Part shown: positions 60,122 to 64,000 of the stretch, piece after piece | How positions within the stretch are numbered: the first letter of the stretch is position 1 | How the letters are laid out: each line of letters begins with the position of its first letter | Assembly: GCA_027061995.1 (NCBI GenBank) | Contig: JAMOUT010000087.1 | Location: 1-64,000, forward strand | Length of the DNA stretch: 64,000 bases | Direction: 5' to 3' | Origin: Candidatus Aminicenantota bacterium | GTDB taxonomy: Bacteria; Acidobacteriota; Aminicenantia; JAMOAD01 | The notes under the pieces: generated by a model | What the model saw: only the letters and a program-made list of their open reading frames with translations | What the model was told of the DNA's origin: nothing | The model's database searches: none | Translations under genes and position numbers: made by a program

Positions 60122-60153
60122 AAGGGGCAAACTTTTATCAAAGTTTGCCCCTT
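60122..60153. terminator. Bidirectional terminator
   Basis: Stem AAGGGGCAAACTTT (60122-60135) with AAAGTTTGCCCCTT (60140-60153), loop TATC, A-run before and T-rich on the other strand. Separates hutU from the converging Hdr/Qmo operon. Confidence 0.88.
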
Positions 60154-60170
60154 AATCATAAAACTATCAA

Positions 60171-61262
60171 TTATTCTTTATTTTTCAATTCCGCAAGCCA
60201 AAGTGCCACAGGTCTATACATAAGATGTGAGAATTTTGTAAAAGGGAGAGTAATTATCAATTCGAACACTATTATGAGATGAAGTGCAAAACTAACATAA
60301 TACCCTTTAAAAAACAAACTCCATCTGCATATATCAAGCGCATAACCCGAAAGAATAGCCAAAAAGATTAGTATGATAAAAATCCAATCCGTGTGATGTG
60401 AGTATTTGGAATAATTATCTTTTTGTTTCCCCCTTTTATAGAGGAAATATACAGAACCGTATATAGCGGGTAATCCTGAAACAATTCCTATTATCTTCGG
60501 GATTATTTTAAGAGTGCTTTGAGTTGAGATAAACAGATCAATCATCATAACGGTTATCGTTGCTATAAACAAACCTATAAAACCCCAAACAAGCGATAGA
60601 TGGGCTATATATCTGCTTTTATCTTCACACTCCGAAAATTTCTTCTGAGCAAGAACCTCTTTGAACAATACATCAAAAAATCCTTTTACCGATTCGGAAA
60701 ATTTAAAACTCTTTTTCTTAAACCCGTTAACACTTTTCATCATTACATATATTTGAAAAAAAGCTAACAGTATAAGGAAAATAAAAGCGATTATCCCGCC
60801 GTCATGAAGAGTATCAAGGCTAATCATAGACAAAGGATTGATTTTCTCCATATCGGGATAATTACCGAAGATATAAATTCCCCCTATTGCAAGAAGTGTA
60901 AGAATTATCCATGCAAAAACGGAAGAGAACCCATTATAAAAAATATCGGCAACCTTCCCGAGTGAAAACTTTCTTATCTGATATCTTCTGAGAGCCATCA
61001 TTAAACCACCGGGGTCAGCATCTCTCGGACAAGTATCCGAACACTCTCCGCAATAATAGCAAAGCCACGGGTCCATAGAGGAATTAATCTTATCTTCCAA
61101 TCCGAGAATGGTCGCTCTTATCATCTTTCGGGGAAAAGAGTTATCTTCCGTAGAAAGGGGGCAAATTGCCGTGCAATTTCCGCAATTATAGCAAGCATTT
61201 ATATCAAAAGCACCGTATTGTTTTATCTTTTCCGAAAATTCCGAATTTATCTTGTGCATCAT
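60171..61262 (-). CDS. HdrC-HdrE fusion membrane iron-sulfur subunit (QmoC-like)
   Basis: 363 residues. Two 4Fe-4S motifs of HdrC type: Cys24/27/30/34 in CYNCGNCTAICP and Cys68/71/74/78 in CYYCGECSDTCP. The rest is a membrane cytochrome b/NarI-like part with about six helices (first near 108-128). His residues such as those in YIAHLSLVWG and YSHHTDWIFI may bind haem. This fusion is the layout of QmoC, which passes electrons between the quinone pool and the soluble subunits. ATG overlaps the winged-helix gene stop by 4 bases. Confidence 0.85.
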   Translation of the reverse strand: MMHKINSEFSEKIKQYGAFDINACYNCGNCTAICPLSTEDNSFPRKMIRATILGLEDKINSSMDPWLCYYCGECSDTCPRDADPGGLMMALRRYQIRKFSLGKVADIFYNGFSSVFAWIILTLLAIGGIYIFGNYPDMEKINPLSMISLDTLHDGGIIAFIFLILLAFFQIYVMMKSVNGFKKKSFKFSESVKGFFDVLFKEVLAQKKFSECEDKSRYIAHLSLVWGFIGLFIATITVMMIDLFISTQSTLKIIPKIIGIVSGLPAIYGSVYFLYKRGKQKDNYSKYSHHTDWIFIILIFLAILSGYALDICRWSLFFKGYYVSFALHLIIVFELIITLPFTKFSHLMYRPVALWLAELKNKE

Positions 61263-61543
61263 TTCCTCCCCTTTAATTCATAAAAATAATAATCATCATC
61301 GGAAACTTCTCCTGTTTCCTCTATATATCCGTATTTTCTACATGTCATAACATTATAGGTAACATCGGATAGAGGCAGATTCATAATCTCGGCTATCTGT
61401 GGGATTGTCTTAGGACCTGTTGACAATGCTTTTGCAATAGATTTTCTGATTTTCATAAATTTTCTTGTTTCCTCAACTTTTTTTTCGGAAACTTTCATCT
61501 TGTTTTTTATATATTTAAGGGTTTTTTCCTGATCCCAACTCAT
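61259..61543 (-). CDS. Small winged-helix protein inside the Hdr/Qmo operon
   Basis: 94 residues. A charged N-terminal helix (about 3-35) is followed by a winged-helix-like segment: KALSTGPKTIPQIAEIMNLPLSDVTYNVMTCRKYGYIEE reads as helix-turn-helix plus wing; the piece TIPQIAEIMNLP is the turn. No metal-binding Cys set. 4-base overlaps on both sides with HdrA- and HdrC-like genes make coupled translation with the enzyme subunits likely. It may be a local regulator, or a structural subunit using this fold. No named family. Confidence 0.6.
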   Translation of the reverse strand: MSWDQEKTLKYIKNKMKVSEKKVEETRKFMKIRKSIAKALSTGPKTIPQIAEIMNLPLSDVTYNVMTCRKYGYIEETGEVSDDDYYFYELKGRK

Positions 61544-63483
61544 CCGTTCACCTCCTCCATTATTCCGTCTATCATCCCCATTATCTCTTTATTGGTATAA
61601 CCTTTAAGTTCTATGGCTCGCTGTTCGCAAACAGGGATACATGAGCCGCATCCTTTACATAATGCCTCGTTTACATAGGCAATAGTCTTTCCTTCCGCCT
61701 CTTTTTTTTCTATTGCATCATATATGCAAACTTCATCACATTTTCCGCACCACTCGCAAGCATTTTTATTTACAATAGCAACAATAGGTTCAAGCTGCAG
61801 AGTTCCACCGGAAAGAAGTGAATATGTTTTTGCGGAAGATGATAAAGATGAGAGAATTGATTCGGTCAAATTCTTAGGCCCCTGACTTGTTCCGGCTATA
61901 AAAACTCCGTCAATAACAGTTTCAACAGGTCTTAATTTAGGATGAATCTCATTAAAGAATCTATCCCTTCCTATCGGGACTTTGAAAATCTTTTCAAGTC
62001 TTTCATTATTTCTCGGAACCATTCCCGTTACAAGAACAATAAGATCAGGATTAATCTCTATCTCCTCCCCTTCGGTTAACAAGTCTTTAATTCTGACAAT
62101 AGTGTTTTCACCCTCTGTTATAACTTCGGGAGGTTGATTTTCATCGAATTTCAGATATATATCCCCGTTTTTACATGAGTCTCTGTATAAAAGTTCCTGT
62201 TTCCCGTAAGTTCTTATATCTCTGAAAAGATGATATGTTTTTATATCCTTGTATTTTTCCTTAAGTAAAAGGGAGGTATGAATTGCAGCCGTGCAACAAA
62301 ATCTCGAACAATATTTATTATCTCCCCCTTTTTGTCTGCTACCGACACAATAGATAAAACCTATGTTTTTAATCTCTTTATTATTAAAAACAAGCTTCCC
62401 GTTACTCAATTCCATCAATCTTCTAAACTGCTGTAAACTAAGGACAGTATCACTGTTTTTATAACCGTATTCACCCTCCTTAGGTTCATAAGGGGAAAAA
62501 CCGGTGGTTAAAATCACAGCTCCTATCTTAAGATTGAGTTTTTCCACCTTTTGGTTAAAATCAAAAACCTCGGGACAAGTTTGTTCACATATACCGCATT
62601 TTGTGCAATTATCAATATCAATGGCAGGCTGTTCGGGAAAAGCTTTTTTATAATTTTTATAGATAGCTTTTCTTTTTGTTAAACCAAAGTTAAATTCATC
62701 GGGAACTTCAACAGGACACTGTTTGATAATCTCCTCAAATTTTTCACACCCCTTATCGGTTTTAATGAATCTGGGATGAATTTTGATTCCAAGATCAAAA
62801 TTTCCAACGCACCCTGAAAATGATTCAACTTCAGCTCCTGTCCATATTTTAATATTATTTCTTTTTATTATCTCTTTATAAAGTCTTTCAACAAGCTCTT
62901 CCCCTCTCTCTCCGCTTTCAAAAAGAGCTCCCCACTGAGAGATTCTACCTCCGAGAAAATGCTCTTTCTCTATAAGATAAACATTAAGTCCCGTATCAGC
63001 AAGTTCTATGGCGGCTCTCATTCCGGCAGCACCTCCGCCGATAACCGCAACTCCGTTTGTAACGGATATCTCATTAGGAGTCAGAGGTTTTGCCTGAGCG
63101 GCTCTTCTAATTCCCGATCTGACAAGCCTAATCGCTTTCTCAGTGGCTTCTTCCGGTTTATCCGAATGCGCCCATGAATCCTGCTCCCTAATATTAACCT
63201 GAATATATTCATAAGGGTTTATCCCCGCTCTTTCGGCAACACTTCTGAAAGTATGAAGATGAAGTTTGGGAGAGCATGAAGCAACAACCATTCCGTCAAG
63301 TTTGTTTTCAAGAATATCCTGAACCATCTCTTTTTGACTTGAATCAGAACAAGCAAAAACAGTTGTTTTTGCCAAAACAACACCTTCCTCATTTTCAACC
63401 GAGTGCATAACCTTTTTAACATCAACATAATCGGAGATATTGCCACCGCAATGACAAATATATACACCTATTCTTTTCTTCAT
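61540..63483 (-). CDS. HdrA-like flavin/iron-sulfur subunit (Qmo type)
   Basis: 647 residues. Begins RIGVYICHCGGNI, an HdrA N-terminal Cys motif, then VASCSPKLH, an FAD site VIGGGAAGMRAAIELADTG (about 151-169), a ferredoxin-like motif CTKCGICEQTCP, the HdrA-specific YCSRFCCTAAIHTSLL, GVFIAGTSQGPK near the second flavin part, and two 4Fe-4S motifs at the C-terminus (CEWCGKCDEVC, CKGCGSCIPVC). Likely passes electrons in a heterodisulfide reductase- or Qmo-like complex. No MvhD domain is fused. 4-base overlaps on both sides. Confidence 0.88.
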   Translation of the reverse strand: MKKRIGVYICHCGGNISDYVDVKKVMHSVENEEGVVLAKTTVFACSDSSQKEMVQDILENKLDGMVVASCSPKLHLHTFRSVAERAGINPYEYIQVNIREQDSWAHSDKPEEATEKAIRLVRSGIRRAAQAKPLTPNEISVTNGVAVIGGGAAGMRAAIELADTGLNVYLIEKEHFLGGRISQWGALFESGERGEELVERLYKEIIKRNNIKIWTGAEVESFSGCVGNFDLGIKIHPRFIKTDKGCEKFEEIIKQCPVEVPDEFNFGLTKRKAIYKNYKKAFPEQPAIDIDNCTKCGICEQTCPEVFDFNQKVEKLNLKIGAVILTTGFSPYEPKEGEYGYKNSDTVLSLQQFRRLMELSNGKLVFNNKEIKNIGFIYCVGSRQKGGDNKYCSRFCCTAAIHTSLLLKEKYKDIKTYHLFRDIRTYGKQELLYRDSCKNGDIYLKFDENQPPEVITEGENTIVRIKDLLTEGEEIEINPDLIVLVTGMVPRNNERLEKIFKVPIGRDRFFNEIHPKLRPVETVIDGVFIAGTSQGPKNLTESILSSLSSSAKTYSLLSGGTLQLEPIVAIVNKNACEWCGKCDEVCIYDAIEKKEAEGKTIAYVNEALCKGCGSCIPVCEQRAIELKGYTNKEIMGMIDGIMEEVNG

Positions 63484-64000
63484 TTCAGACTCCTTATATA
63501 TGCCGCAACTTCAGCGGATGCCGCTCCGGCTGATAATATTGAATCGGGGATATCCTTTGGTCCGGTTGCTGTTCCCGCGGCAAAAATCCCTTTTAAATTT
63601 GTTTTAGCCGGATTGATCAATGGATCCGTCTGTTTAACATAAAAATATTCATCAAGCTCAAGTTCTTCGGTTTTAAACGATGAAGTTATCTGTGGGTTCG
63701 ATAACATCCCCACGGATAAAACAACAAGATCATGCTCCATCTCCTTTACACCGCCGGAGCCCTCTATATCCTCATACCTGACTTTAAGATTCCCGCTCTC
63801 TTTGATCTCCTCAATCTTAGCAACTTTACCTTTGATAAATTGAACTCCCATATCCTTCGCCTGTTGATAAAATTCTTCAAAACCTTTTCCGAATGCTCTT
63901 ATATCAATATAATAAATTGTAATATCCGCAAGAGGTAAGGCTCCCATTAAAAGCTGAGCCTGCTTTATCGAATACATGCAACATATTTGAGAGCATATAG
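63480..64000 (-). CDS. Second HdrA/QmoA-like subunit, C-terminal part (runs off right edge)
   Basis: The minus-strand frame is open to the window edge. Just before the internal Met at 63977 it encodes CSQICCMYSIKQA, the HdrA Cys-Cys motif, so the gene starts outside. The visible 173 residues include LADITIYYIDIRAFGKGFEEFY, LVVLSVGMLSN and the flavin-site end GIFAAGTATGPKDIPDSILSAGAAS. Without C-terminal ferredoxin motifs it resembles QmoA more than the neighbouring subunit. Its stop overlaps the next ATG by 4 bases. Confidence 0.85.
   Translation of the reverse strand, partial: ICSQICCMYSIKQAQLLMGALPLADITIYYIDIRAFGKGFEEFYQQAKDMGVQFIKGKVAKIEEIKESGNLKVRYEDIEGSGGVKEMEHDLVVLSVGMLSNPQITSSFKTEELELDEYFYVKQTDPLINPAKTNLKGIFAAGTATGPKDIPDSILSAGAASAEVAAYIRSLK

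Follow-up and report, generated by a model that had tools for sequence, protein, structure and literature searches.

The window analysed here is a 64,000-nucleotide stretch of DNA from a Candidatus Aminicenantota bacterium, namely bases 1-64,000 of the 89,651-base contig JAMOUT010000087.1, and its right edge cuts an operon in which a 94-amino-acid (aa) protein with a predicted winged-helix fold, here called wH94, is encoded among the subunits of a Qmo/Hdr-type enzyme. The operon occupies the minus strand and reads, 5′ to 3′, arsR-dsrE-tusA-mvhD-qmoA-qmoB-wH94-qmoC. Its last four genes encode an HdrA/QmoA-like protein of 436 aa (contig positions 63480-64790, of which 63480-64000, the C-terminal part, falls within the window), an HdrA/QmoB-like protein of 647 aa with an FAD domain and 4Fe-4S sites (61540-63483), wH94 (61259-61543; a putative winged helix with two extra N-terminal helices) and a QmoC-like protein of 363 aa that combines an HdrC-type ferredoxin head with an HdrE/NarI-type cytochrome b membrane domain (60171-61262). 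Outside the window, the same strand carries mvhD (contig 64759-65205; MvhD/FlpD, PF02662, E=7e-28), tusA (contig 65202-65459; PF01206, E=6e-24, with a CPGP motif), dsrE (contig 65516-65932; DsrE-type, PF13686, E=3e-10) and a gene for an ArsR-type regulator (contig 65947-66285), beyond which a tRNA-Ala gene lies on the plus strand (contig 66547-66620).

The original prediction, made from the letters of the window, had claimed four open reading frames (ORFs) linked by three ATGA stop/start overlaps, and all of these lie on the minus strand where it had placed them, with the overlaps at 63480-63483 (qmoA-qmoB), 61540-61543 (qmoB-wH94) and 61259-61262 (wH94-qmoC). Together with tusA-mvhD, four junctions of the operon thus overlap by 4 bp. 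By crude gene calls, 7 of the 41 same-strand neighbour pairs in the window overlap likewise, three of the seven in this operon, so that the feature is suggestive but not extraordinary on its own. An overlap of -4 or -1 between qmoB and wH94 is retained in families f1 and f4 (locus L038 excepted), but gaps of 3-39 nucleotides are found in family f7, so that the strict coupling read into the overlaps is no strong argument. Behind qmoC, a hairpin resembling an intrinsic terminator (60122-60153, minus strand; 14 pairs followed by a T run) and, directly before arsR, the region's best promoter-like site on the operon strand are both consensus matches only. The promoter-like site reads TTGACA-17-TATATT (L002 6320-6292).

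The subunit set comprises two HdrA-like proteins and an HdrC-HdrE type fusion. The best-scoring NCBIfam family for the QmoC-like protein is NF038018 (qmoC), at 231 bits against a cut-off of 300, above which Acidobacteriota loci score 306-431 bits; the protein also has a Nitrate_red_gam Pfam match and carries two 4Fe-4S motifs in its ferredoxin head (CYNCGNCTAICP and CYYCGECSDTCP). The QmoB-like subunit matches HdrA2 (NF040770, E=1e-179), and mvhD adjoins an HdrA-type gene as it does in MvhADG/HdrABC systems. The HdrB-type CCG domain PF02754 is absent among the Pfam matches listed for the window subunits (the best 25 for QmoB). No lipoate-binding protein LbpA was seen in the operon, which was the part of the genome covered, and no yedE-like ORF was recognised there by reading the ORFs, without a yedE profile and without a search of the remaining genome.

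The prediction had noted that no sulfate-reduction genes were visible and had suggested looking past the right edge; this yields mvhD, together with tusA and dsrE, but neither dsrA nor aprA was found in the metagenome-assembled genome (MAG; 95% complete, 1.7% contamination), in agreement with the former remark. The [NiFe]-hydrogenase large subunit PF00374 and the futalosine-pathway marker PF02621 were likewise not found in the genome. On the quinone side, menA and the cytochrome b-type domain of QmoC are both present.

wH94 was searched for among relatives and in the class Aminicenantia, the phylum Acidobacteriota and the class of one sulfate-reducing relative; the profile search covered Acidobacteriota, and a wider scan of genome contigs used the window protein alone and detects close relatives only. 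Homologues occur in 44 genomes from 12 Acidobacteriota families. Neighbouring genes can be read in 43 of these genomes, the remaining locus (L112) being cut at a contig edge; every one of the 43 places wH94 within a Qmo/Hdr operon, and 41 have it directly 5′ of qmoC. In the other two (L110 and L111), hdrC-hdrB stand in place of qmoC and wH94 follows hdrB; these replacement HdrC/HdrB (CCG) genes, found at L110 2634-4046 and L111 8473-9756 beside a retained wH94, include a PF02754 domain confirmed in L110. The proposal that the gene for the small protein is part of the enzyme operon is thereby supported. Two patterns that would tell against it, homologues away from hdr genes and relatives keeping the synteny without the ORF, were both looked for, with an outcome in its favour.

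Within Aminicenantia, wH94 is present in 26 of 142 genomes with a bimodal distribution of scores (76-119 bits, the next best being 27 bits); the genomes that have a window-type QmoC locus are the same 26. None of the 26 has aprA, and none has dsrA above the cut-off (one weak partial match in G031). No relative was found in a scan of viral contigs. Excluded from the count were G427 (27 bits) and G020:C82 (E=0.009, within a 371-aa frame) as too weak, and G510 (25 bits), whose sequence is that of an ArsR-type protein; a Microvirga plasmid match (E=0.02) was rejected as chance, since its surroundings hold neither qmo/hdr genes nor anything that matches wH94. In a QmoC tree, in which L033, L045 and L048 were counted as wH94 carriers because their labelling as lacking it reflects gene-calling misses, the rows lacking wH94 fall into nested groups, some forks being moderately supported; wH94 therefore looks old, with later losses.

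The QmoC loci sort into four operon types. Type 1, (arsR, dsrE) tusA-mvhD-qmoA-qmoB-wH94-qmoC (-dsrE2), always carries wH94 (27 loci with tusA visible and 10 cut at contig ends). Type 2, qmoB-mvhD-MvhG-MvhA-qmoA-wH94-qmoC, also always carries it (six loci in families f25 and f66, with L119 cut). In type 3, which comprises the order qmoA-qmoC-qmoB-mvhD-MvhG-MvhA together with some further arrangements, wH94 is always missing. Type 4 is canonical qmoABC behind aprBA, with QmoC above the 300-bit cut-off and without wH94 in the loci read. That known QmoABC lacks such a subunit, as the prediction had said, holds even within single organisms, since six genomes (G154, G162, G167, G207, G283 and G366) combine a type 4 locus without wH94 with a type 1 operon on another contig. 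Neither wH94 nor tusA was seen in any of the 40 other QmoC loci read (L124-L142, L170-L182, L184-L187, L144-L146 and L149), several of which are truncated at contig ends. Because all loci share common descent, their counts do not represent independent events. Because wH94 is kept in type 2 despite the different gene order, it tracks qmoC rather than the upstream neighbour. As to whether it always lies between hdrA- and hdrC-like genes, the constant feature is a position directly 5′ of qmoC rather than one between qmoB and qmoC: in type 2 wH94 follows qmoA, and in the two HdrCB variants it follows hdrB. An ArsR-type regulator heads many wH94 operons besides that of the window.

These distributions point to wH94 as the mark of a specific Qmo variant that has apparently not been described before and whose ties are to sulfur carriers or H2, not to adenosine 5′-phosphosulfate (APS) reductase. 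The CPGP motif of TusA is kept in 27 of the 27 loci with tusA visible, and the DsrE-type proteins retain a cysteine. In type 2, genes for the [NiFe]-hydrogenase MvhAG lie between mvhD and qmoA (L114, L117, L119 and L163-L165), and a domain search in L114 confirmed large and small subunits and a HycI protease; this type is a predicted H2:quinone oxidoreductase in Acidobacteriota. Family f4 has a QmoA-like protein of 903 aa (L040 8027-10738) with an inserted Fer4_20 and a GltD-like pyridine-nucleotide module. QmoA-like proteins of about 900 aa, among which the domain test covers L040 only, occur in f4, part of f5, f7, f12, L111 of f35, f56 and one f16 genome, and appear as a swap of donor module within one operon type, the module being absent from the 436-aa protein found in the window family. 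MvhAG occupies the place of the NAD(P)H module in f25 and f66, and the window family has neither. The donor in relatives is probably NAD(P)H or H2, and the earlier suggestion of another electron donor fits TusA/DsrE and MvhD here, MvhAG elsewhere and the GltD-like module in a sister family.

Several observations were made beside these loci. In G207, two QmoC genes with qmoA/qmoB-type neighbours share one contig with aprA (L149 829-2061 and 14569-15885). Downstream of wH94 operons, DsrE-family proteins are encoded next to a roughly 273-aa protein with a resemblance, by eye, to cytidylate kinase (L109 5320-6945, L111 10114-11364, L112 2300-3241).

wH94 has no match above cut-off in Pfam or NCBIfam. 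The window protein stays below the Pfam gathering scores of helix-turn-helix (HTH) families (HTH_5 13.8 against 22, HTH_20 15.2 against 27, HTH_27 14.3 against 22.2), and its relative at L047 slightly exceeds the cut-off for HTH_20 and HTH_IclR. An AlphaFold2 model based on a 21-sequence alignment (mean predicted local distance difference test score, pLDDT, 89.6) places N-terminal helices at residues 3-15 and 20-39, the HTH helices at 47-54 and 58-70 and a two-strand wing at 74-80 and 86-90. Structure comparison (VIA-align) returns winged helices of a generic kind at Z ~11, ArsR-like and Z-alpha domains among them. The winged-helix character that had been read from the sequence is thus supported by the model. 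Among 27 aligned sequences, the best-conserved residues are T46 and Y88, followed by L40, P48, A51, Y71 and Y85; no cysteine is conserved across the family, which therefore has no conserved thiol sensor. The nonsynonymous divergence (dN) of wH94 among four f1 genomes of the same family is 0.01-0.10, with mostly saturated synonymous divergence (dS), and that of qmoC and qmoB in same-family genomes is 0.05-0.26 and 0.03-0.16; in these comparisons wH94 evolves more slowly than qmoB, qmoC and mvhD and about like qmoA. Such strong purifying selection marks the 94-aa ORF as a real gene.

wH94 stays with two operon types and was not found in the sulfate-reduction operon, which suggests a protein dedicated to the enzyme, as a component or as its regulator, and not a gene regulator that strayed into the operon. 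In the reading that we hold, by a narrow measure, to be probable, a Qmo-type complex works with TusA/DsrE, and wH94 is a protein-binding subunit that serves the QmoC/HdrC arm for control or docking, not a DNA-binding regulator. The QmoA-, QmoB- and QmoC-like proteins and MvhD would form an electron-transfer complex of the HdrA/Qmo type that is coupled to quinone and has TusA and DsrE, both sulfur carriers, as partners in place of APS reductase; electrons would flow between a donor, menaquinone and sulfane sulfur on TusA/DsrE. wH94, made in step with the complex through translational coupling, would sit or act on the QmoC/HdrC arm; we infer its physical association with the complex and its role as gate or dock. 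Several points weigh against this account. The substrate and the direction of electron flow are deduced from gene content only; type 3 operons do without wH94, which is therefore not needed for every Qmo-MvhD-type complex; and no fusion of wH94 to a subunit of the complex was found, the 469-aa and 183-aa frames that hold it in L114/L117 being upstream frame extensions for which a fusion reading was dropped. In addition, the fold is generic with DNA-binding regulators as its nearest structure matches, the wing is nearly neutral in part of f5, and the f1 proteins are basic overall (isoelectric point 8.5-9.4).

In a rival that we consider rather unlikely, wH94 is an autoregulatory, MarR/ArsR-like transcription factor inside the operon that it controls. 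In its favour, regulators of the ArsR/MarR/IclR type and Z-alpha domains head the structure matches, HTH families make up most of the weak Pfam matches, and the protein is basic overall in f1. Against it stands a place fixed directly 5′ of qmoC across two operon types that differ in order; many of the operons already have a separate ArsR at their head, the window protein stays below the gathering score of every Pfam HTH model, and a family-wide cysteine is lacking. Moreover, families f1, f4 and f7 have an acidic wing (net -4 to -7), and in the recognition helix, whose net charge is -1 to +2, aromatic and acidic residues are conserved; a helix that reads DNA would typically look different.

That wH94 is always next to qmoC, or to the hdrC-hdrB pair that takes its place, and is translationally coupled in several families would suit a factor that helps to assemble or mature QmoC (or HdrCB), with its Fe-S and heme groups, and stays outside the finished complex; we consider this improbable, as both related and canonical QmoC proteins are encoded without wH94 in the same phylum and in the same genomes. 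That the operon is an ordinary sulfate-reduction QmoABC with an incidental small ORF is scarcely credible: subunits A, B and C do stand in canonical order and qmoC is the best-scoring NCBIfam family, but the sub-cut-off QmoC score, the lack of aprA, and of dsrA above the cut-off, in the wH94-bearing Aminicenantia, the canonical aprAB-linked loci without wH94 and the purifying selection on the ORF all speak against it. Returning to the control or docking subunit, a bolder extension, which we offer tentatively and with some doubt, is that wH94 is the first member of a family of winged-helix subunits that do not bind DNA but gate a quinone-coupled HdrA/Qmo complex in electron exchange with sulfane sulfur on TusA/DsrE. 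Such a complex would be a module for sulfur respiration (or sulfur oxidation) in the cytoplasm that needs neither DsrAB nor AprAB, and it would have a sister version fed by H2.

In practical terms, wH94 is a clean marker gene that splits Acidobacteriota Qmo-like operons into types and shows a QmoC-bearing complex tied to sulfur carriers in organisms without AprAB or DsrAB. Automatic annotation would label it a transcription regulator, and the operons might be misread as sulfate-reduction genes. If wH94 is a subunit, a mostly DNA-binding fold would have been recruited as a control part of electron transfer, for which DsrD is a rare precedent.

DsrD has a winged-helix fold. Both DsrD and wH94 are small and encoded with, and specific to, their own enzyme operon; the partner enzymes differ, and the comparison is a working analogy only. 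DsrD is a small allosteric activator of DsrAB (PMC10591310, PMC10504309). No DsrD family of Pfam matches wH94 at E<=1, and DsrD is not among the best 50 structure matches listed, which excludes nothing. A conserved ORF of 79-82 aa lies just behind dsrB in sulfate-reducing Acidobacteriota (L145 13180-13428, L150 5254-5493, L151 10362-10601); small ORFs in this position were dropped as stand-ins for DsrD, having no Pfam match and an hhalign probability to wH94 of 1.4%.

Like the window operon, QmoABC of sulfate reducers has two HdrA-like flavoproteins and an HdrC-HdrE fusion in the order A-B-C; unlike it, the window operon adds mvhD, tusA, dsrE and wH94, has a sub-cut-off QmoC and belongs to a genome without aprA/dsrA. 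MvhADG-Hdr and hydrogenase-linked HdrA/QmoC operons share the position of MvhD beside HdrA, with full MvhAG in f25 and f66, whereas the window genome has no [NiFe]-hydrogenase and relatives with the A-C-B-MvhDGA order lack wH94. An ArsR-type regulator is found near sHdr operons, as in the window operon. The sHdr sulfur-oxidation system, which is Hdr-like and includes TusA, DsrE and a lipoate-binding protein (PMC6067878), likewise has HdrA-type proteins beside TusA and DsrE, but the window operon has a membrane QmoC, and HdrB-type proteins occur only in the HdrCB variant (L110/L111). The HdrL-type HdrA with an extra NADH/FAD domain (PMC12142623) resembles the 903-aa QmoA of f4, whereas the window QmoA has no such insertion; the same paper treats QmoC, MvhD, TusA and DsrE as separate loci, and no winged-helix protein was described in QmoB or MvhD operons in the open-licence papers searched. 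QmoABC, MvhD-HdrA, TusA/DsrE and the YTD cluster are already known (PMC10504309, PMC12998232, PMC8528874, PMC13293266). In the last of these, the yedE-tusA-dsrE cluster of sulfur disproportionators reported in Acidobacteriota too (PMC12998232, PMC8528874, PMC13293266), tusA and dsrE-type genes lie together as they do here, and in the window operon both are joined to qmo/hdr genes.

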